Source of the DNA: Spirochaetae bacterium HGW-Spirochaetae-2
GTDB lineage: Bacteria > Spirochaetota > Spirochaetia > Sphaerochaetales > Sphaerochaetaceae
DNA length: 57,741 nucleotides
Assembly: GCA_002839355.1 (NCBI GenBank)
Contig: PGXW01000034.1
Span: 1 to 57,741 of the forward strand
Reading direction: 5' to 3'
Shown one piece after another: positions 96-57,642 of the stretch. Within the stretch, counting starts at the first letter, position 1; the number at the start of each line of letters is the position of its first letter. The notes below the pieces were generated by a model. The model did no database searches and was not told where the DNA came from. It saw only the letters and a list, made by a program, of their open reading frames with translations. A program made the translations under genes and the position numbers.

Positions 96-131
96 ATTTT
101 GCATACAAAATTGAAATTTGGTACCAGGTTC
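96..131. repeat. R1 repeat, right half (partial copy)
   Basis: The stretch carries the right half of the R1 family: a GCATACAAAA core followed by TTGGTACCAGGTTC. The left half found in full copies is not present. Its outer end overlaps the stop codon of the Fic gene. Full copies are at 2007, 12210 and 19409. Confidence 0.65.
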
Positions 132-1083
132 ATACGTGGTATTTTCGCATCCTGCCGGACCCCTGTATTTTCAGAAGGCCTTCCGAAACCATGCGGTTGA
201 GGTCTCGGCTGGCGGTCGCGGTGGAAATCCCCTTGCACAGCTCCATGTAGGTTTTTCTATCGAACCATGTGTCCAAGTGGGCAATCAGGTGGTTTTTCCT
301 CTGTTGGTAATCGTTTGGCACAGCTTTGGTGTCATCGACAAGATCTGCTAGGGTGGTTTGGATGATCGACAACATGAATTCTATGAACGGTGTTGACTCT
401 CCGCTCCGGTCTGATGCCACCAATGCATCATAATACGACTGTTGGCGTTCGAGGATCATCGATTCGATTGGTACATAAGCGAAGATCGGATCGACTTTCA
501 TCAACAACAACGTCTGCCACAATCTTCCCATTCTCCCATTCCCATCCTCAAAAGGATGGATGAATTCGATTTCATAGTGAAAAACGCAACTCTTGATAAT
601 CGGCAGATCGTCGTCGTGTAAAAGATACTCGAAGAGATCGTGCATCAGTTGGGGAACACGTTCGGCTGGAGGAGCGATATGGGTTATTGTGTTTCCGTTT
701 GCTATGCCGACTTGTGAATTTCGAAAAATGCCCGGTTGGTCAGCCAAGCCATGGAGCATACGCGCATGTGCCTTCAGCAAATCGGAAGAGTTATAAGGAT
801 CATACGACCATACATGTTCATAGACTTTTATGGCATTTTCGACCTCAGTAATGTCGTTCTTAGGCCCAATAACCCTTTTATTGTTGATAATTGCCGTAAC
901 TTGGTCGCGAGTGAGTTGGTTGCCTTCTATTGCCAAGGTCGCTTGGATCGTCTTTATGCGATTCTGCCTTCGTAGCTTGGTATCGGGTTCGGCAAGGAGC
1001 AATCCTTTGCACACGCCGAGACTCTCCTTGATTTTTCCGTACAGGTCCAACATGTGGCTTGTAATCCGATATGGCGGTTTCAT
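130..1083 (-). CDS. Fic-family protein, probable AMP transferase with winged-helix tail
   Basis: This 317-residue protein has the complete Fic motif HPFEDGNGRMGR at residues 176-187, with catalytic His176 and the Asp and Asn/Gly/Arg residues that hold ATP phosphates. Fic enzymes usually transfer AMP to a hydroxyl of a target protein. At residues 49-54 TLAIEG matches the inhibitory [S/T]xxxE[G/N] helix, placed before the Fic core as in class II self-inhibited Fic proteins. The last 60 residues look like a winged helix, common in stand-alone bacterial Fic proteins. No separate antitoxin gene is adjacent, which agrees with built-in inhibition. The stop codon touches a partial R1 repeat. The target is unknown. 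Confidence 0.9.
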   Translation of the reverse strand: MKPPYRITSHMLDLYGKIKESLGVCKGLLLAEPDTKLRRQNRIKTIQATLAIEGNQLTRDQVTAIINNKRVIGPKNDITEVENAIKVYEHVWSYDPYNSSDLLKAHARMLHGLADQPGIFRNSQVGIANGNTITHIAPPAERVPQLMHDLFEYLLHDDDLPIIKSCVFHYEIEFIHPFEDGNGRMGRLWQTLLLMKVDPIFAYVPIESMILERQQSYYDALVASDRSGESTPFIEFMLSIIQTTLADLVDDTKAVPNDYQQRKNHLIAHLDTWFDRKTYMELCKGISTATASRDLNRMVSEGLLKIQGSGRMRKYHV

Positions 1084-1134
1084 ACCTTCATGATAGCATC
1101 AAATGATACTATCAACAAGCAATATAAACGGTAT

Positions 1135-1950
1135 CTATGCTCGGTAATCCTTACGCATCGTCTTTTTCCTTAGCGAGAGAAAACGGTTGATTGCCTTGTC
1201 GGCGATACACTTTTCCCGCATGGAAAGGAGAAACTCATTGCGGTACCACTTCAGTTCCGGCGGGCAGTTGCCCGAACGGATGAAATCTTGCATGGCACCG
1301 GACAACCGGTGGTCATTGCAGTACCGTTCGAACTCTTCGTGCAGAATCTGGGTTGGTGTCCTGAGCTGTTCATCCTTCGCAAGACAGCCCCTCCAGTCGT
1401 AGCGCGACGTCTTTTCCTGCAATTTGAACGCGTAATTGGCCAACGCGGTGTTCCTGTCGGAACCGATCAAATCGAACAGGGTATCGAAATCGGTGATTCC
1501 GTGGGCATCGCGGGATAGGAATTCATGATGCGAAGACCACCGGTATTCGTGTGGCCGTATACACAACCCGGCCTTCACGGGATTCCATGCAATGTATCCG
1601 ATGATATTCATGAGATACTGTTGGTCACATACCTCAAACCACTTGTATCGACCATCGTAGATGGTGCCGGTACGTTCATACTTGCGGTTGTAGTATCTTG
1701 AGAACTTGACATTCGCCGCCATGAAAAAATGCGATATCGGCTGATTGCCCGTTTCGACCAAGAGGTGGTAGTGGTTGTTGAGGATCGTATAATACAGGAT
1801 ACGGACATCGAACTCTTTGGCATATTTCCCCAATATCTGGGTCAGGAGCGTTTTCTCCGCATCTGTCTGGTAGATGTCATTGCGATTGTTTCCCCGTTGG
1901 GTTACGTGGAACAACAGTCCCGGTCGTTGGTGGTTGCGGTTTCTTCCCAT
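1135..1950 (-). mobile_element. RAYT / IS200-like single-strand (HUH) transposase
   Basis: The 271-residue product is a Y1-type transposase of the REP-associated (RAYT) kind. Visible signatures are FHVTQRGNNR near residues 14-23, the HUH metal site as NNHYHLLVE (His60, His62), and a YIAWNPVKAG helix near 119-128 that is likely to carry the catalytic tyrosine, followed by EYRWSSHHE. The length is typical of RAYTs and longer than about 150-residue IS200 TnpA. There is no TnpB partner and no obvious IS ends. A full R1 palindrome lies 57 bp upstream of its start and a half copy lies beyond the Fic gene downstream, the arrangement expected when a RAYT is domesticated with its REP repeats. Coding looks intact. 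Confidence 0.88.
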
Positions 1951-2006
1951 GGTTTTTTAACCCTCCATGAGAAACACGCTGCGAAATCCGATTTTGCTTC
2001 ACCTAA

Positions 2007-2064
2007 CGTGCCTGGCACCATTATTCAATTTTGCATACAAAAACCAAAGTTGGTGCCAGGTACC
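2007..2064. repeat. R1 repeat, full 58-bp copy
   Basis: A complete R1 unit. It starts CGTGCCTGGCACC, has the core TTTTGCATACAAAA, and ends TTGGTGCCAGGTACC. The outer arms are inverted repeats of each other. It lies between the RAYT gene and the histidine kinase, and the last base of the repeat is also the last base of the kinase TAG stop codon. Confidence 0.85.
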
Positions 2065-12209: not shown

Positions 12210-12267
12210 CGTGCCTGGCACCATTTTTCAATTTTGTATACAAAAACCAAAGTTGGTGCCAGGTACC
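12210..12267. repeat. R1 repeat, full 58-bp copy
   Basis: A complete R1 unit with the perfect 14-bp inner palindrome TTTTGTATACAAAA and outer arms GCCTGGCACC and GGTGCCAGGTACC. It starts one base after the TGA of the upstream plus-strand gene and overlaps the 3' end of the minus-strand HAD gene, so it fills the whole convergent gap. Confidence 0.88.
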
Positions 12268-19408: not shown

Positions 19409-19465
19409 CGTGCCTGGCACCATTTTTCAATTTTGTATACAAAAACGAAAACGCGTGCCAGGTAC
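19409..19465. repeat. R1 repeat, full copy
   Basis: A complete R1 unit with the inner palindrome TTTTGTATACAAAA. The right arm reads ACGCGTGCCAGGTAC, a variant shared with the copy at 21353. The two copies bracket the PIN/ImmA/XRE module. Confidence 0.85.
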
Positions 19466-21352: not shown

Positions 21353-21408
21353 GTACCAGGTACCATTTTAAAATTTTGCATACAAAAACGAAAACGCGTG
21401 CCAGGTTC
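21353..21408. repeat. R1 repeat, nearly full copy with changed left arm
   Basis: The left arm reads GTACCAGGTACC instead of GTGCCTGGCACC, the core is TTTTGCATACAAAA and the right arm is CGCGTGCCAGGTTCC. It lies upstream of galM and downstream (by position) of the XRE promoter. It pairs with the copy at 19409 around the XRE-ImmA-PIN module. Confidence 0.75.
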
Positions 21409-37819: not shown

Positions 37820-37863
37820 CGTACCTGGCACCGATATTGAAAAATGTATACAAAATTTTTACG
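37820..37863. repeat. R1 repeat, degenerate copy
   Basis: The left arm CGTACCTGGCACC and the core TGTATACAAAA are preserved, but the right arm is lost. Located just after the lipoprotein terminator. Confidence 0.6.
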
Positions 37864-39020: not shown

Positions 39021-39060
39021 TAAATTTTGCATACAAAAAACAAAGTTGGTACCAGGTACC
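39021..39060. repeat. R1 repeat, right half
   Basis: AAATTTTGCATACAAAA followed by TTGGTACCAGGTACC. The left arm is absent. The final C is the third base of the TAG stop codon of the minus-strand GGDEF/HD-GYP gene, the same arrangement as at the histidine kinase. Confidence 0.78.
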
Positions 39061-41912
39061 TACGAAGTAAACGCCTTGACGACCTCCGGATCGAAATGCG
39101 TCCCGGCACAGGCGCGAATCTCGTCCATGGCGACAGCGACATCCATTGGCGGCTTGTAGGAACGCTCGCTGGTCATGGCATCGAACGCATCGGCGACATG
39201 GATGATACGCGCCTGGATGGAAATCGCCTCGCCGGCGAGCCCGCGGGGATAGCCCAAGCCGTCCCAACGCTCGTGGTGCTCGAGGATGATGGTGGAGATA
39301 TCGATGAATTCACTCGCAGTCGAAAGGATGCGGTATCCCGTTTCGGGATGGCGGCGCACCTCCTCCCATTCCTCGGAGGTGAGGGCACCGGTCTTGTTGA
39401 GGATATGCTCGGGAATACCGATTTTACCGATATCGTGCATGAGACCGGCGATCCTGATCCGATTGACCTCCCGCGAGGAGAAGCCCATCTTGCGCGCGAT
39501 CGTCTCGCTGAGCTCGCTGACACGCTTGGAATGCTGCGACTCCCTGTCGCTCTTGGCGAATAGGGAATTGATCACCAACCCGATGGTCTTGTTCTTGGCA
39601 CTTGAACTCTCGTAGAGCTTGTGGCGGTACATCATGTCCTCGGCCTTCTTGAAGACGGACATGAAATCGTCGCCCATGGTCTTGCGCGTCTGGCAGCCGA
39701 AGGAGATGGTGAGTTGGAACGAGTCGATGCGCACATCCTTGGCACGCGACTCGATCTCCCCCATGATACGCTCGCTCTCGGCGGCATCGGTGTGGGGGAG
39801 TAGCAGGACGAACTCGTCGCCACCGTAGCGGGCCACGATATCGCCTGGACGGGCGATATGGCTGAGCAACCCGGCAGCCTGGCGCAACACCATGTCCCCG
39901 GCTTCGTGGCCGAAGGAATCGTTGACCAGCTTCAGCCCGTTGGTATCGGCGATGATGATGGAGACGGGAAGGTAGGATGCGTCGTCGAAGCGTTTGAGGG
40001 CATTCTCGAGATACCCGCGGTTGTACACACCGGTAAGGTAATCGTGGTTGCGTTGGAAGACCAACCGCTCGGAGGCCCGTTTGGTGTCGGTGATATCGCG
40101 GCAGACGACGACCGAACCGACAATCGCCCGGTGCTGGTCGCGAATCGGTGAGAAGCTGTAGCTGCCTATCCACGATTCTCCGGTATCCTTGCGCCGCAGG
40201 GTGAACTCGGCATGGGTGACACACTCGCCGGCGAGGGCACGCGAGACAGCCCATTGCTCGATGGGGGCGGCACTGCCGTCCGAAAGGTATATGTCGAAGA
40301 TGGCGGGGTATTCGGCCAAGGTTTTCTTGCAATCGGCCTCGTCGGCGAAGCGGTGGTAGGTGACGAATGCCTGGTTGAACATGATGAACCGCCCGTCCGT
40401 ATCCGAAATGAAGACGGCATCGGTCATGCTGTCTATGGCGGCATGGAGGGTGGCGTTGCTCGCCGCCAGGGATTCGCGCATCTTCTGTTGGTCCTCGAGT
40501 GCGAGCAGCACGATCCTGCGGGACTCCTCGGCCTCCAACAGCAACCTGCGGATCTCATCCTCGGCAGCCTTGCGCTCCGTGACATCGAAGAAGATCGCGA
40601 GGGTATCGCCTCCGCCAAAGTCGGTGCCGGTGATTTCCATGGTCCTGATATCGCCGTTCTTGCAGGTCACCTGGTAATCGGCGTGGGGCCCCAGGCGGGT
40701 AGCGGGACCACGTCCGACCTCCTCCTGCTCCCACCGGGTCCTGACGAGACGGCGGTATTCGGGATCGGGATAGGCCAGGTGGTACCACCTGTCGAGCGTG
40801 TGGATCTCCTTAAGGGTATAGCCGAATACCGACTGCCACCTGTGGTTGACCGCCACGATCTCTCGCTTGGCGTCAAAGATTCCCATGGGCAGCGGAGCGC
40901 ATTCGAACAGTTCGGTGAACCGTTTCTCGCTTTCGGCCGATGCCGTCTCCGCACGCTTGCGTCGTGCGATCTCCCGCTTCAATACCCATATCCAAGACGC
41001 CAACCCGAAGAGCACCACCACAAGCACACCGGCGGCCTGCCACAATCGGGAATAATCGACACCGTATTCATAGCGGATAGGCAACCAGCGCCGGTAGATC
41101 TCATCGCGTTCGGCTGAGCTGATCGTGGCCAGTGCCTTGTCGAGGATTCCCGCCAGGATCTCCCAATCCTTGCGCACGGCCATGGACTGCGCATTGACAT
41201 ACGGCGTGGTCCCGGCGATTTTCAAGGTGGTGGACAACTTGAGTTGGGTGAGGTAGTGGCCGACCACTAGCATGTTCTCGATATAGGCGAACACCTCGCC
41301 CTTCTGCAACCGGTCCAATCCCTGCCGCACATCCTGCACCGGTACGAGCTGGATATCCGGGTAATCGCGGGGAATCCAATCGAAGACCGCATAGTTCTCC
41401 ACCACAGCGACACGCTTGCCCGCCAATTCGTCCATATCGTTGATATAGGCGACATTCGTCCGGGTCACGATCACAATGGGGATATCCATATACGGCTTGG
41501 TGAACGCCCAGAAGAACTCCCGGTTGGGTGTGGCGGCCACAGACGGGGTCATATCGATCTCCCACGACTTCAAGCGCCGAAACGATTCCTGCCAACTCAA
41601 GCCGCTCACCGTGAGGAACGTGATACCCAACCGTTGCTCCAACAGCTGTAGGTAATCGGACGTCATTCCGGACGGCTCACCCTGGTCATCGACGAACTCG
41701 ATTGGTGGCCATCCGGGATCCTGGGCCACACTGACAAACGGATGCTTTTCGAGCCACGCGACCTCATCGGGTGTGAGCATGGTGCGGAAGCCGATGCTGT
41801 CGGTACCATCTTGCCCGAAAGCCATGGATACGGCAACCAGCAGGAACACACCGACGAGCACCACCATGCGTCTGTAATGAGCTGTAGTCCCTTGTGTTGC
41901 TAGCCTGTACAT
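39060..41912 (-). CDS. Periplasmic-sensor PAS-PAS-GGDEF-HD-GYP cyclic-di-GMP protein
   Basis: A 950-residue signalling protein. After a signal anchor (residues 16-33) comes a bacterial family-3 solute-binding sensor (about 50-275; FVSVAQDPGWPPIEFVDDQGEPSGM), a transmembrane helix (about 288-312), two PAS domains, a GGDEF domain with an intact ARYGGDEFVLLLP site, and an HD-GYP domain with GLMHDIGKIGIPEHIL and HHERWDGLGYPRGL. Both cyclase and phosphodiesterase signatures are complete, so it could make and degrade cyclic di-GMP depending on the ligand. The ATG at 41912 has GGGGAG upstream; 41969 is an alternative. Its stop codon lies on an R1 repeat. Confidence 0.95.
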   Translation of the reverse strand: MYRLATQGTTAHYRRMVVLVGVFLLVAVSMAFGQDGTDSIGFRTMLTPDEVAWLEKHPFVSVAQDPGWPPIEFVDDQGEPSGMTSDYLQLLEQRLGITFLTVSGLSWQESFRRLKSWEIDMTPSVAATPNREFFWAFTKPYMDIPIVIVTRTNVAYINDMDELAGKRVAVVENYAVFDWIPRDYPDIQLVPVQDVRQGLDRLQKGEVFAYIENMLVVGHYLTQLKLSTTLKIAGTTPYVNAQSMAVRKDWEILAGILDKALATISSAERDEIYRRWLPIRYEYGVDYSRLWQAAGVLVVVLFGLASWIWVLKREIARRKRAETASAESEKRFTELFECAPLPMGIFDAKREIVAVNHRWQSVFGYTLKEIHTLDRWYHLAYPDPEYRRLVRTRWEQEEVGRGPATRLGPHADYQVTCKNGDIRTMEITGTDFGGGDTLAIFFDVTERKAAEDEIRRLLLEAEESRRIVLLALEDQQKMRESLAASNATLHAAIDSMTDAVFISDTDGRFIMFNQAFVTYHRFADEADCKKTLAEYPAIFDIYLSDGSAAPIEQWAVSRALAGECVTHAEFTLRRKDTGESWIGSYSFSPIRDQHRAIVGSVVVCRDITDTKRASERLVFQRNHDYLTGVYNRGYLENALKRFDDASYLPVSIIIADTNGLKLVNDSFGHEAGDMVLRQAAGLLSHIARPGDIVARYGGDEFVLLLPHTDAAESERIMGEIESRAKDVRIDSFQLTISFGCQTRKTMGDDFMSVFKKAEDMMYRHKLYESSSAKNKTIGLVINSLFAKSDRESQHSKRVSELSETIARKMGFSSREVNRIRIAGLMHDIGKIGIPEHILNKTGALTSEEWEEVRRHPETGYRILSTASEFIDISTIILEHHERWDGLGYPRGLAGEAISIQARIIHVADAFDAMTSERSYKPPMDVAVAMDEIRACAGTHFDPEVVKAFTS

Positions 41913-42132
41913 GTGCTGCTCCCCATTGTATATCCCTGTGACCGCTTCCCCTCGCGAATAGCCATCCACGGTCTACCACGATGTAACACACTACCACACA
42001 TGGGAGTAAGTATCCAGTTTGTCCGCCGGAGGCGCCTGGGAGGAAGATGTTAGGTGTTGGGGAAAAGGGAGCTTGTGACGACGTGAAAAGTTTGAGTTCT
42101 TGGGTTCTTTTTCGATTGCTAGGAAAGTATAT

Positions 42133-42252
42133 GTGGGGAAAAGTCTTTCCCCACGCACCTGGTGGCGGGTGGTTTCACCACCGGACGCCGTTTCTCTTCT
42201 TGCTCCCATACTGTCCGCAAGGAAACGGCGGCCAATGCGGTGCTCCCCTTTC
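42133..42252. repeat. R2 structured repeat, copy A
   Basis: A roughly 120-bp element with three hairpins: GTGGGGAAA/TTTCCCCAC (42133-42154), GGTGG/CCACC near 42170-42182, and CGCCGTTTC/GAAACGGCG flanking TCTTCTTGCTCCC. It ends GGTGCTCCCCTTTC. Copies B (45120) and C (54166) share the second half almost base for base, but here the first hairpin has a different sequence that still pairs perfectly. Confidence 0.8.
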
Positions 42253-42279
42253 AAAGAAAGACTCCCTAAGTGTGAGAGC

Positions 42280-42430
42280 GCCAAACGGTGCCAGGGATGC
42301 AACGCTTGAAGGAGCTAGGCTCCTTCATGCCTGGCACCGCCTTTGGCTACTTGAAAGGGGAGTCTACGGGTGCGAGACCTCTCGGATTACGTCGAAGAGG
42401 GAGCCAGGTGCGGGGCACCTAGCACCCTAT
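42280..42430. repeat. R3 repeat, copy 1
   Basis: A long repeat nearly identical to 57446-57580. It begins with a large palindrome: GCCAAACGGTGCCAGG pairs with CCTGGCACCGCCTTTGGC around a GAAGGAGC/GCTCCTTC stem. The GGTGCCAGG/CCTGGCACC arms are the same as R1 ends. Its tail forms part of the left inverted repeat of the ATPase cassette. Confidence 0.8.
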
Positions 42431-42467
42431 TACCCGGCATCGTCTTCTTGACCACTCTTCAAGCGCG
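42372..42467. repeat. Left 96-bp inverted repeat of the ATPase/TOPRIM cassette
   Basis: Aligned by hand without gaps to the reverse complement of 44919-45014: about 80 of 96 bases agree, with most differences C/T or G/A. It begins GCGAGACCTCTCGG and ends TTGACCACTCTTCAAGCGCG. Confidence 0.78.
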
Positions 42468-42531
42468 TTGCATCCACCGATATCCTTCAGTATCGACAAT
42501 ATTGGTGCCAGACACCAGAAAGGAATTACAA

Positions 42532-43149
42532 TTATAGAATAGACTCGATCGCATTTTTGAACATCGAAAAGCTATGGGAGGTGTTATGGTGAATATCCAT
42601 ATGTTGGGCAATTTCCCGTGCGCATTCGGATTTTCGGAGGCCAGTCGAGAAATAGCCAGCTCGCTGTAAAATACGTTCCAAAGCCTCCCAAGTCCCTCCC
42701 TTGATCGCATCAGGATTGCGATATTTCGCTTGTTTGGGTATGGTGGCAGGTACTCTCGGATACGCTGTACGGACAGCATTCCAATCACCAAAGAACCATG
42801 CTTCAAGCTCCTCGATTACGATACGATTGATCACCTCGAATTTCCGACCTTCCGACGAACTTGATCTTGTGATCAACCCAGCCGAATGAGCGTGTATTTC
42901 CAATTGCTGTTTTAGTTCGATACAATTGTCATCATCCCGATCGACGAGTACAATAATCGACCAAGCCTCTGGTATCCAAGATCTGAATCCACGCAATCTG
43001 ATTGGGAGTTCTTTCAACAGTTCATCTTTACATTGAAAAGGGAAAACCTGGTAATTAATTTCTCCTAGCATCTGCGGAAGAATTTGCTCCAACGTAACTT
43101 GCATCGAATATTCTTCTACGAATACGAGTAGTTTTTCCAGCATCCTCAC
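42532..43149 (-). CDS. DUF4276-like TOPRIM protein (putative defence nuclease)
   Basis: A 205-residue protein with a TOPRIM-like layout: a first strand ending in acidic residues (LLVFVEEYS, Glu12/Glu13) and a second with DRDDDN (Asp70, 72, 73, 74). [17 protein letters not shown] is typical of the DUF4276 group, from memory. The GTG start overlaps the ATPase stop as GTGA; ATG 43143 is an alternative. TOPRIM proteins beside OLD-like ATPases usually act as nucleases of anti-phage systems (OLD, Gabija, PARIS). The role here is inferred from that pairing. Confidence 0.75.
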
Positions 43150-44384
43150 GCACCCTTGATAGTGGTTTTAGGCGCGCCTGAATTGACCATAGGATCTCCG
43201 AATCCAAAATGCCCTTCCATCCAGAGATGCCCGAGCGAGGACCCCGCCTGTATTAATTCTGGTATTCCTGTGATATCCGATGCTCTTACCGCCTGTGTGA
43301 AGCCATGTTCGTCCCGGTAGAGCACACGAACTTCCTCAGCCCTCATGGCATTGAGCAGAAATGGGGAATGGCTGGTAATGAGCAGTTGGGAATTTTCCGA
43401 TGCGGCCCGACACTCCTCGGCCAATTCGGGTAAAAGTCGCGGGTGGAGGAAATTTTCCGGCTCCTCGATACCAACAAATCTTGGTGGTTCAGGATCATAC
43501 AGCACCGTAAGGTACGCCAGCATTTTCATGGTCCCATCCGAAGCGAATTTGGAGAGTACCGGTTTCTCGAACGGTGCATCCTTGATTTGCAGCAACAGTC
43601 GACCATCCGGCATTGGCTCTGCATCCACGCGTTCCAAGTGTGGAATACGTTTGCGAAGAACAGTAAAAATCTTCTCCAATCGATGTGGGTGCATTTCCTT
43701 CAAGTATTGGATTACATTGGGCAGGTTGTCTCCACTCTTGCTCAATCGTTCCTGTGGTCCCGCCTCGGGCTGGTTCTTGGTTTGATCGATAGACAAATAC
43801 GAGACATACCAAGTAGTGATGAATTCACGCAACGCCGCAACCCGGGGATGGTCTGTCAGCTGCCCAAGCGTGTTGACTGCAATGAGATCTGGGGAACGCA
43901 GGTTTGACTCTGTACGAATATCATCTGCCTCTGGGACTTCTCCGCTAATCGCACGGCCGATTCCTCTCTTGAATTCGAGAAACCGAAAAGGTTGTCCCTT
44001 GCTTGCGCGACGCCACTGCAACCATTCCTCAACCACTTCAGGTCCTTTGATTCCCTCGTCGATAGCCAGATGGTAGGTGATTTTCGGAGTTTTTGGTGAT
44101 TCCCTATACGTGAGTTCAAATACTATCGGTCCGTCCTCTCCACGTGTCTTGAGTTCCTTACCTTTTCCCCGGCGATCCCAAGCATGCCTGAGTCCAAACT
44201 GGAAACACTCGGAGAGGAAGTTGAATACATCGAATATCGTTGACTTTCCGCTCCCGTTTGGACCTAAAAGAACAGTCAAAGGAGTCAGTTTGTCCAATGT
44301 GACGTCCTGTAAGGACCGGAAATTCTGGACTTTCAACGATTCGATTCTTGGAATGCCATTTTCTTTCGACGACATCGATTCCAT
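43146..44384 (-). CDS. OLD/RecF-like AAA ATPase
   Basis: A 412-residue SMC/ABC-type ATPase. It opens with [20 protein letters not shown] and Walker [10 protein letters not shown] (41-49). The C-terminal half has an SDGT signature-like segment (282-285), Walker B VGIEEPE (304-310), the D-loop region [13 protein letters not shown], and the switch histidine ITSHSP (336-341). There is no long coiled coil and no TOPRIM domain of its own; that is supplied by the next, translationally coupled gene. Pairs of this kind are candidate phage-sensing and killing systems. Confidence 0.9.
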
Positions 44385-44657
44385 TTTTTCATCCCTTGTA
44401 CATCATACTAATCGCAATATACAGTTTTTCCCGATGATCCGATTTGACTTCCACGGTGGAATATCTTGAAGCCGTAAGCCCGAACACCTTGAATATCATA
44501 CTCTAGCAGAAACAGTTAATTGCCACAAGAATAACCTTTTCCCATGAGAAGTTACGACTGCAAATCATTCGAATTGACCTCGTGGGTTAATTATGCAATT
44601 ATCAACACGATGGAATCGGCTTTGGCATAACGGTAAGGAGAGTACGAGGAGTATCAT
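44385..44657. other. Divergent promoter region of the cassette
   Basis: A 273-bp gap between the ATPase (minus) and the HigA-like gene (plus), rather AT-rich with no gene. It must hold both promoters; I see no clear operator. AAGGAG and GAGGAG lie before the HigA-like ATG. Confidence 0.5.
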
Positions 44658-44927
44658 ATGAGCTTATTGTCAAGCATTCCCACGGGGAAGATAATCAAAG
44701 ACTATCTTGACGAACATACCATAACACAGAAGGAATTGTCTGCAAGAACCGGTATCAGCGAAAAGCACCTGTCCCATCTGCTCAATGGAACGAGCCGTTT
44801 GACCGAGGATGTAGCATTGAAACTTGAAATGGTCTTAACTGGTATCCCCGCCTCATATTGGCTGAATTATGAAGCCAAATACCGTGAAGCAGTTGCAAGG
44901 GAGAGGGCAGGGATGAAGCGCGCTTAA
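44658..44927 (+). CDS. HigA-like XRE antitoxin/regulator without toxin partner
   Basis: An 89-residue helix-turn-helix protein of the HigA type: PTGKIIKDYLDEHTITQKELSARTGISEKHLSHLLNGTSRLTEDVALKLE and then IPASYWLNYEAKYREAV, the conserved HigA tail. HigA normally follows a HigB RNase gene, which is missing. It is divergent from the ATPase and may control the cassette. Its last codons (KRA-stop) lie within the right inverted repeat, so the repeat or its recombination has shaped its end. Confidence 0.85.
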   Translation: MSLLSSIPTGKIIKDYLDEHTITQKELSARTGISEKHLSHLLNGTSRLTEDVALKLEMVLTGIPASYWLNYEAKYREAVARERAGMKRA

Positions 44928-45014
44928 AGAGTGGTCAAGAAAACGATGTTGGGTGATGGGGTGCCAGGTTTCCTATACCTGGCTCCCTCTTCAACTTAAT
45001 CCGGGAGGTTTCGC
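44919..45014. repeat. Right 96-bp inverted repeat of the ATPase/TOPRIM cassette
   Basis: The inverted partner of 42372-42467. It runs from CGCGCTTAAAGAGTGGTCAA to CCGGGAGGTTTCGC and overlaps the end of the HigA-like gene. Beyond it, 45030-45105 continues with sequence matching, in reverse, the tail of R3 near 57561-57610. Confidence 0.78.
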
Positions 45015-45119
45015 ATCCTTAGGTTGTAACCAAATTCCTTCGAGAGGTTTACCTTTGCAGGACATTTCTAAATAAGAATGAAGGTTCTACCTGACTCTCT
45101 CTTTGAGGATTGTCCATGA

Positions 45120-45245
45120 GGGGAAAAGGGAAGGCTGCGCCAGATGAGCCTCCCATCCCCACGCACCTGGTGGCTTATTGCCGTTTCTCTTCTTGCTCCC
45201 ATACTGTCCGCAAGGAAACGGCGGCCAATGCGGTGCTCCCCTTTC
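45120..45245. repeat. R2 structured repeat, copy B
   Basis: Same orientation as copy A. The first hairpin has GGGG/CCCC and AGGCT/AGCCT stems (45120-45160). The middle GGTGG/CCACC hairpin is deleted as a unit, while the GCCGTTTC/GAAACGGC hairpin and the GGTGCTCCCCTTTC end are kept. Confidence 0.8.
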
Positions 45246-45259
45246 GGAACCTATTCCAA

Positions 45260-45301
45260 TAATCAATTTTGCATATAAAACGTAAGTCGGTACGAGGTAG
45301 C
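45260..45301. repeat. R1 repeat, degenerate right half
   Basis: AATCAATTTTGCATATAAAA followed by a decayed arm TCGGTACGAGGTA. It ends a few bases from the stop codon of the LacI gene at 45306, as other copies do. Confidence 0.55.
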
Positions 45302-54110: not shown

Positions 54111-54165
54111 CAAATGTGACTTCGGGTTCATGATGGTTTTTTCTTTACAAAGAATATCATTTGAT

Positions 54166-54308
54166 GTGGGGGGAAGAGAAGGCTGCGCCAGATGAGCCTC
54201 CCATCCCCACACACCTGGTGGCGGGTGGTTTCACCACCGGACGCCGTTTCTCTTCTTGCTCCCATACTGTCCGCAAGGAAACGGCGGCCAATGCGGTGCT
54301 CCCCTTTC
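54166..54308. repeat. R2 structured repeat, copy C
   Basis: The most complete R2: GTGGGG/CCCCAC with inner AGGCT/AGCCT (54166-54210), GGTGG/CCACC (54224-54238), CGCCGTTTC/GAAACGGCG (54242-54286) and the GGTGCTCCCCTTTC end. It marks the boundary between the GC-balanced nag operon and the AT-rich insert. Confidence 0.82.
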
Positions 54309-57444: not shown

Positions 57445-57445
57445 C

Positions 57446-57610
57446 GCCAAACGGTGCCAGGGATGCAACGCTTGAAGGAGCCAGGCTCCTTCATGCCTGG
57501 CACCGCCTTTGGCAACTTGAAAGGGGAGTCTTCGGGTGCGAGACCTCCCGGATTGAGTTGAAGAGGCAGCCAGGTAGCACCTTCATTCTTATTTAGAAAG
57601 GTCCTATGGA
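57446..57610. repeat. R3 repeat, copy 2
   Basis: Starts two bases after the ROK gene stop. The first 130 bases match 42280-42410 almost completely, including the GCCAAACGGTGCCAGG arm and the TCGGGTGCGAGACCTC stretch. It continues with ACCTTCATTCTTATTTAGAAA, which recurs inverted at 45050-45080. The palindrome arms are those of R1. Confidence 0.8.
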
Positions 57611-57642
57611 GGTAAGCCTCTTGAACTGGCGTTGAACAGTTA

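Follow-up and report, generated by a model that had tools for sequence, protein, structure and literature searches.

Among domesticated bacterial transposases, RAYTs are the best known. To our knowledge, the dispersal of REPs has been tied only to some RAYT groups, mostly in gammaproteobacteria. GTAG-tagged REPs are the partners of RAYT (TnpA_REP) proteins of groups 2 and 3 (PMC8266576). Such REPtrons, in which a group 2 or 3 RAYT is found with GTAG-tagged REPs and with REPINs (BIMEs), have been described in E. coli, Pseudomonas and Stenotrophomonas (PMC3116915, PMC8266576). An earlier survey reported no REP-like sequences near genes of another branch, subclass 2.1, which is RAYT group 1 and corresponds approximately to the TIRYTs (PMC6006769). 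The TIR families of TIRYTs (TIRtrons) have a motif that is mostly GGGGWSAS; they were seen in a few species, and some are moderately abundant (PMC3733652). CGTC-tagged REPs, which have no associated transposase, were reported also from Spirochaetes (PMC3733652), and insertion sequences that target REPs have been described (PMC1525189).

Here we describe a spirochaete locus in which a RAYT is flanked by copies of a dispersed palindromic repeat, designated R1. The window, i.e., the whole stretch of DNA analyzed (57,741 nucleotides), corresponds to contig C86 in a draft genome of 3.6 Mb (G000). It was compared with a sister genome (G001, about 92% identical), a genome of the same genus (G002, 72-77% identity) and a genome of another genus (G007). 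In addition, 139 genomes of the family were searched with an R1 covariance model and with an exact arm-arm pattern. A sequence-only reading of the window had proposed a RAYT flanked by its probable REP repeats in a spirochaete, and this proposal is supported by the co-occurrence of gene and repeat, by further arm-flanked loci and by the protein fold. We consider it probable that R1 is a REPIN-like family dispersed by the group 1-like, or TIRYT-like, RAYT encoded at 1135-1950. The RAYT-REP partnership would then extend to an enzyme branch for which the earlier survey reported no REP-like sequence.

The RAYT gene is located on the minus strand (1135-1950). As had been read from the sequence, it is an intact open reading frame for a TnpA_REP-like HUH (Y1) protein; the product has 271 amino acids, an HUH motif (H60-Y-H62) and a candidate catalytic tyrosine, Y119 (YIAWNPVKAG). 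The protein contains a Pfam Y1_Tnp domain (E=4e-10), and the residues of the HUH motif and of the downstream catalytic tyrosine region (H60, H62, Y119 and N123) do not vary across an alignment of 35 sequences. Against the NCBIfam equivalog model NF047646 (REP_Tyr_transpos), it scores 67.3 bits (E 1.3e-18), below the curated cut-off of 80 bits, and is a relative of this family rather than a member by the cut-off rule. The closest structural match of an AlphaFold2 model (mean pLDDT 88.9) is 4er8, the complex of E. coli TnpA_REP with a REP hairpin, with a Z score of 16.9 over 155 residues; the best IS608 chain follows with 11.0. The same structure, 4er8, is the top Foldseek match of the model and the only convincing PDB match by sequence. 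The predicted fold is thus closer to TnpA_REP than to IS200/IS605 TnpA.

The stretch that corresponds to the tag-reading residues of TnpA_REP, W94/Q95, reads IYDGRYK in the window RAYT, and WQ is not conserved. Going by published descriptions, the protein resembles those of group 1, subclass 2.1 and the TIRYTs, and not groups 2 and 3, the REP-binding RAYTs of gammaproteobacteria. Like TIRYTs, it is a long Y1 protein with flanking inverted repeats unrelated to GTAG REPs; such terminal inverted repeats without GTAG also flank the RAYT of the sister genome, where they are R1 copies, and a RAYT of the other genus. Another TIRYT feature, a C-terminal helix-turn-helix, is present in some relatives of the window RAYT (HTH_23/HTH_28), but none was detected in the window RAYT itself, whose C-terminal third is modelled as helices. 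A Fic-domain protein is encoded at 130-1083 (minus strand), between the RAYT and a half R1 at 97-131, and no Fic gene was seen beside the RAYT in the sister genome.

Alignment of 20 copies defined R1 as an arm (GTRCCWGGYAC), 10 nt, a core (TTTTGYATRCAAAA), a further 10 nt and a second GTRCCWGGYAC arm. Among 148 half-units taken from two genomes, 146 have a spacer of exactly 10 nt between arm and core, and the sequence of this spacer is variable. The symmetric design that had been proposed for R1 held for the arms, the core and the spacing; its inner part was less regular than claimed, as the two copies that adjoin the RAYT carry TTTTGCATACAAAA and not the perfect TTTTGTATACAAAA. R1 occurs in a short form of 56 bp and a long form of 129-130 bp. 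The latter has two cores 73-74 bp apart, and its center has a constant length (59-60 nt) and a sequence that is unrelated among several copies; the sites concerned include C103:3640 of the sister genome, set against C69:36433-36506 of the window's genome. Single-stranded R1 DNA folds far better than shuffled sequences (z -4 to -12). Separate small hairpins are possible for each arm and for the core, a structure that is compatible with the alignment and shows little covariation. A single long hairpin was unsupported: the 10-nt spacers showed no covariation across the long palindrome, and shuffles did as well or better.

The layout of R1 is that of a REPIN-like doublet, i.e., two inverted short palindromes that are dispersed and mostly intergenic (27 exact arm-arm copies, about 40 by the model). 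The locus is like REPtrons in that an HUH gene lies between dispersed intergenic palindromes paired in inverted orientation, and the fold and catalytic residues of the protein match as well. It is unlike them in several respects. The GT[AG]G tetranucleotide is absent beside the arm from the consensus of 148 R1 halves, the residues that would read such a tag are not conserved, the arm is an 11-nt palindrome bordering an interior that is rigid in length and contains a conserved core of its own, copies number about 40 and not hundreds, and the protein seems to belong to a different group. Because both the GTAG tag and the tag-reading residues are missing, R1 is not a canonical GTAG REPIN and only has a similar layout. 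The arm motif also differs from that of TIRtrons (mostly GGGGWSAS). Like the CGTC-tagged REPs, R1 is a short palindromic repeat in spirochaetes, but it has no CGTC tag and does have an associated transposase gene.

The two R1 copies next to the RAYT had both been recognized in the sequence-only reading. A full short-form copy, confirmed at 2008-2063 (77.6 bits with the covariance model), lies 57 bp upstream of the RAYT start codon, and the half copy claimed at 96-131 is a right half at 97-131 (core, 10 nt and an arm with one mismatch), recovered by both pattern search and covariance model. A lone arm, GTACCTGGTAC (2073-2083), adjoins the full copy. Three more full short-form copies are located at 12211-12266 (77.3 bits), 19410-19465 (74.1 bits) and 21353-21408 (69 bits; one mismatch in the right arm). 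Pattern search also identified a left half with a decayed core (37821-37857). A gene segment unlike its counterpart in the sister genome is bordered by a right half (39025-39059) on the left and by a remnant (45256-45300) on the right. Extra copies are present as claimed, but the stated minimum of seven more copies or remnants is reached only if the lone arm is counted. The core pattern (at most 2 mismatches) has 9 matches in the window versus 0.9 expected, and the arm pattern (at most 1 mismatch) has 17 versus 1.7; none of 100 shuffles reached either count. The covariance model detected four full copies and two halves in the window at E < 0.001, plus weaker remnants. We rejected the possibility that a gene insertion had divided a single R1 into the halves at 37821 and 39025, as the intervening gene is also found in the sister genome beside a full R1.

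Within the family, the exact double-arm pattern occurs 27 times in the window's genome, 28 times in its sister, 28 times in the genome of the other genus, once in G024 and not at all in the other 135 genomes; a reversed control of the pattern gave 0 matches. The covariance model responded strongly in the first two genomes, weakly in the third and nowhere else among the 139. Each of these three genomes carries an arm-flanked RAYT that does not adjoin dprA, and the association between arm-arm repeat and arm-flanked RAYT is significant (Fisher p = 2e-6), with only about two independent origins behind this value. The same-genus genome has neither RAYT nor R1, and family genomes that have only a dprA-coupled RAYT contain no dispersed arms. 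The sequence-only reading had named two observations that would speak against it, R1 copies abundant in relatives without a RAYT and a RAYT paralogue with a different repeat. Neither was found in the family search: repeat number tracks the arm-flanked RAYT, and the paralogue in the window's genome, which is dprA-coupled, has no flanking repeat of any kind.

In the other genus, the repeats have the arms of R1 and a different interior, often GAAATTG...CAATTTC. One RAYT of this genome is flanked on both sides by TTCGTGCCTGGCACGA, with 16-nt perfect inverted arms, and the other by GTGACAGGCACGA-type sequences, and the R1 core was found only in the window's genome and its sister. Since arms are kept there with a different interior, the GTRCCWGGYAC arm by itself, rather than R1 as a whole, is the conserved REP-like unit. 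Among 86 related RAYT loci, arms flank 7 (0.1 expected), including loci of Clostridia; in these Clostridia, the double arm has only 0-3 copies per genome, so that arms flank the gene there and are hardly amplified. Natural controls are thus available in the form of same-genus species with and without the RAYT, a repeat-free paralogue within the window's genome, and a second genus in which the arm is shared and the interior differs, and they make the role of the RAYT as repeat maker, and the part that it reads, directly testable.

This distribution bears on the possibility that R1 is a MITE of another, conventional transposon, with the RAYT being merely one gene that lies between copies. The two fixed sizes (56 and 129-130 bp) with inverted ends do resemble a MITE and its internal-deletion form, and the two forms replace each other between the sisters at one orthologous site (long in the window's genome, short in G001). 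Yet the presence of the repeat across the family follows that of arm-flanked RAYTs, the arms flank related RAYTs in another phylum, no target duplication was seen around R1 at aligned sites, and no other arm-flanked gene was met in the course of these comparisons. We regard a MITE origin as unlikely.

The RAYT paralogue of the window's genome is located on contig C4 (L201:1495-3787), directly behind dprA. Arm-flanked and dprA-coupled RAYTs fall in one clade, which comprises 35 of the 86 sequences. The start of each coupled gene coincides with or adjoins the dprA stop codon, often with an overlap; such pairs occur on contig C4, in Sphaerochaeta species, in one other spirochaete and in several Bacillota (loci L201, L071, L072, L074, L082, L083, L085, L086, L088 and L186-L196); Pfam confirmed that the neighbor is DprA in five examples. 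Except at L086, arm repeats were not found near dprA-coupled RAYTs, and the literature searched contained no paper that names DprA and RAYT together. The arrangement suggests that the dprA-coupled RAYT is a domesticated single-strand nuclease whose function is linked to the uptake or recombination of DNA, and that the clade has a housekeeping function in the handling of single-stranded DNA. Because many members of the clade are encoded directly behind dprA, one could further propose that the clade acts on transformation single-stranded DNA and that R1, rather than a single-stranded hairpin REP, is a double-stranded recombination site with the geometry arm-10-core(-59/60-core)-10-arm, serving as a landing or exchange site that yields R1-bordered segments. 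This proposal is speculative, and in our judgment improbable.

In the window's genome, the covariance model gave 88 strand matches, which correspond to about 40 R1 sites because each palindrome is counted on both strands. Although open reading frames occupy 93% of the DNA, 41 of 55 cores lie outside them. Of 41 full sites, 37 are on seven contigs that together amount to 9% of the genome. A location at the replication terminus was considered and set aside, as the GC skew of the R1-rich contigs has no clear switch. Such clustering, together with near-invariant arms and core, the fixed spacer and the stable inheritance of sites, is what might be expected if R1 were a double-stranded site, under selection, for a dimeric regulator or a chromosome-organizing protein, with an indirect link to the RAYT. 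However, the same-genus genome has no copies even though the region is partly syntenic, R1 presence follows the RAYT, the other genus keeps arms and not the core, and many copies are halves or decayed, making this explanation very unlikely.

Approximately 20 R1 sites with orthologous flanks could be compared between the sisters, and almost all were occupied in both; thus, R1 dispersal is old, with no sign of present activity at these sites. One counterpart in the sister genome is so diverged that its core is unrecognizable. Syntenic stretches without R1 occur in the same-genus genome, whose 72-77% identity is too low to define exact empty sites, and an 8-kb segment between R1 copies of the window's genome is missing from it. 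The arms of the sister genome are shifted as a whole towards GTACC-GGTAC, a joint shift that suggests that R1 copies evolve in concert.

R1 copies also coincide with differences in gene content. The window segment 39025-45267 (6.2 kb) is replaced in the sister genome by a different 9.4-kb segment between R1 copies (L167 4603-14045), and a 1.5-kb segment lies between two R1 copies of the sister. The R1-bordered segment holds a sensor/cyclase gene and an AAA/DUF4276 pair in the window's genome, and a GntR/ABC transporter/kinase set in the sister. Overall, 18 of 48 ends of synteny blocks between the two genomes are within 80 bp of an R1, versus 4.2% expected (p about 4e-13). Because alignments tend to break off within variable repeats, this figure is too high, but several of the ends reflect real structural differences, the 39025-45267 and 1.5-kb segments among them. 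These observations would fit a cassette-like recombination site for gene-segment exchange, on which the RAYT or a recombinase acts. But homologous recombination at repeats, or insertion into already variable regions, predicts the same pattern, the junctions are not uniform, and we consider a dedicated exchange site quite improbable. That R1 is mainly an RNA element at gene ends (a terminator, or a processing or stability hairpin) is scarcely credible: placed sites do lie between convergent (16) and co-directional (17) genes far more than between divergent ones (4), and one long form encloses a terminator-like hairpin, but short R1 has no U-tract, an Rfam search of the window gave no match, spacer pairs do not covary, and the tie to the RAYT would be unexplained.

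Several points weigh against R1 being a REPIN-like family dispersed by the RAYT. No fresh insertion was caught in the sister comparison, the full copies are clustered in about 9% of the genome, and the RAYT of the sister genome has an in-frame TAG; the lack of a GTAG/GTGG foot on R1 and of conserved WQ residues in the protein also speaks against it, and the rigid 10-nt and 59/60-nt spacings would fit a double-stranded protein-binding site as well. The TAG precedes the end of the reading frame by about 36 codons (L033 near 903), so that this RAYT may be shortened or inactive. In favor of the RAYT reading, the sister RAYT (88% amino acid identity to that of the window) lies between two R1 copies in surroundings that differ from those in the window. 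A block with the RAYT and a half R1, one end of which is in the R1 core and the other close to the RAYT stop, is common to both genomes within unrelated flanks; it represents a moved or rearranged unit and does not amount to proof of transposition.

With R1 taken as a REPIN-like family, two self-complementary GTRCCWGGYAC arms, inverted around a lineage-specific interior, would form the REPIN-like unit. We infer that the RAYT dispersed R1 in the past and that it binds and cleaves the repeat: the protein would bind the arms as folded single strands, e.g., on the lagging-strand template, its tyrosine would nick beside them, and strand transfer or replication would seed copies at intergenic sites. 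The copies would now persist mostly by vertical inheritance, evolving in concert within a genome; they would also delimit gene segments that have been exchanged and be struck by an insertion sequence.

As with the described insertion sequences that target REPs, an insertion sequence end lies within R1 at all three contig ends found in the sister genome (positions concerned: C124:1-98, C119:1-97 and C38:57995-58091, L203-L205, and the C103 end). A difference is that this element may be ISL3-like, judging by its ends. One site in the sister genome shows both junctions, together with an 8-bp repeat, AAAGTTGG. An insertion sequence end inside R1 also explains the half R1 found upstream of the sister RAYT. 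Finally, the window contains a second, longer non-coding repeat, which has no Rfam match and consists of 105-131 nt blocks, up to 99% alike and some of them inverted (42148-42478, 44911-45245, 54164-54308 and 57445-57625). Its blocks lie around the gene pair for DUF4276 and AAA ATPase proteins (42532-44384), with further occurrences at 54 and 57 kb.
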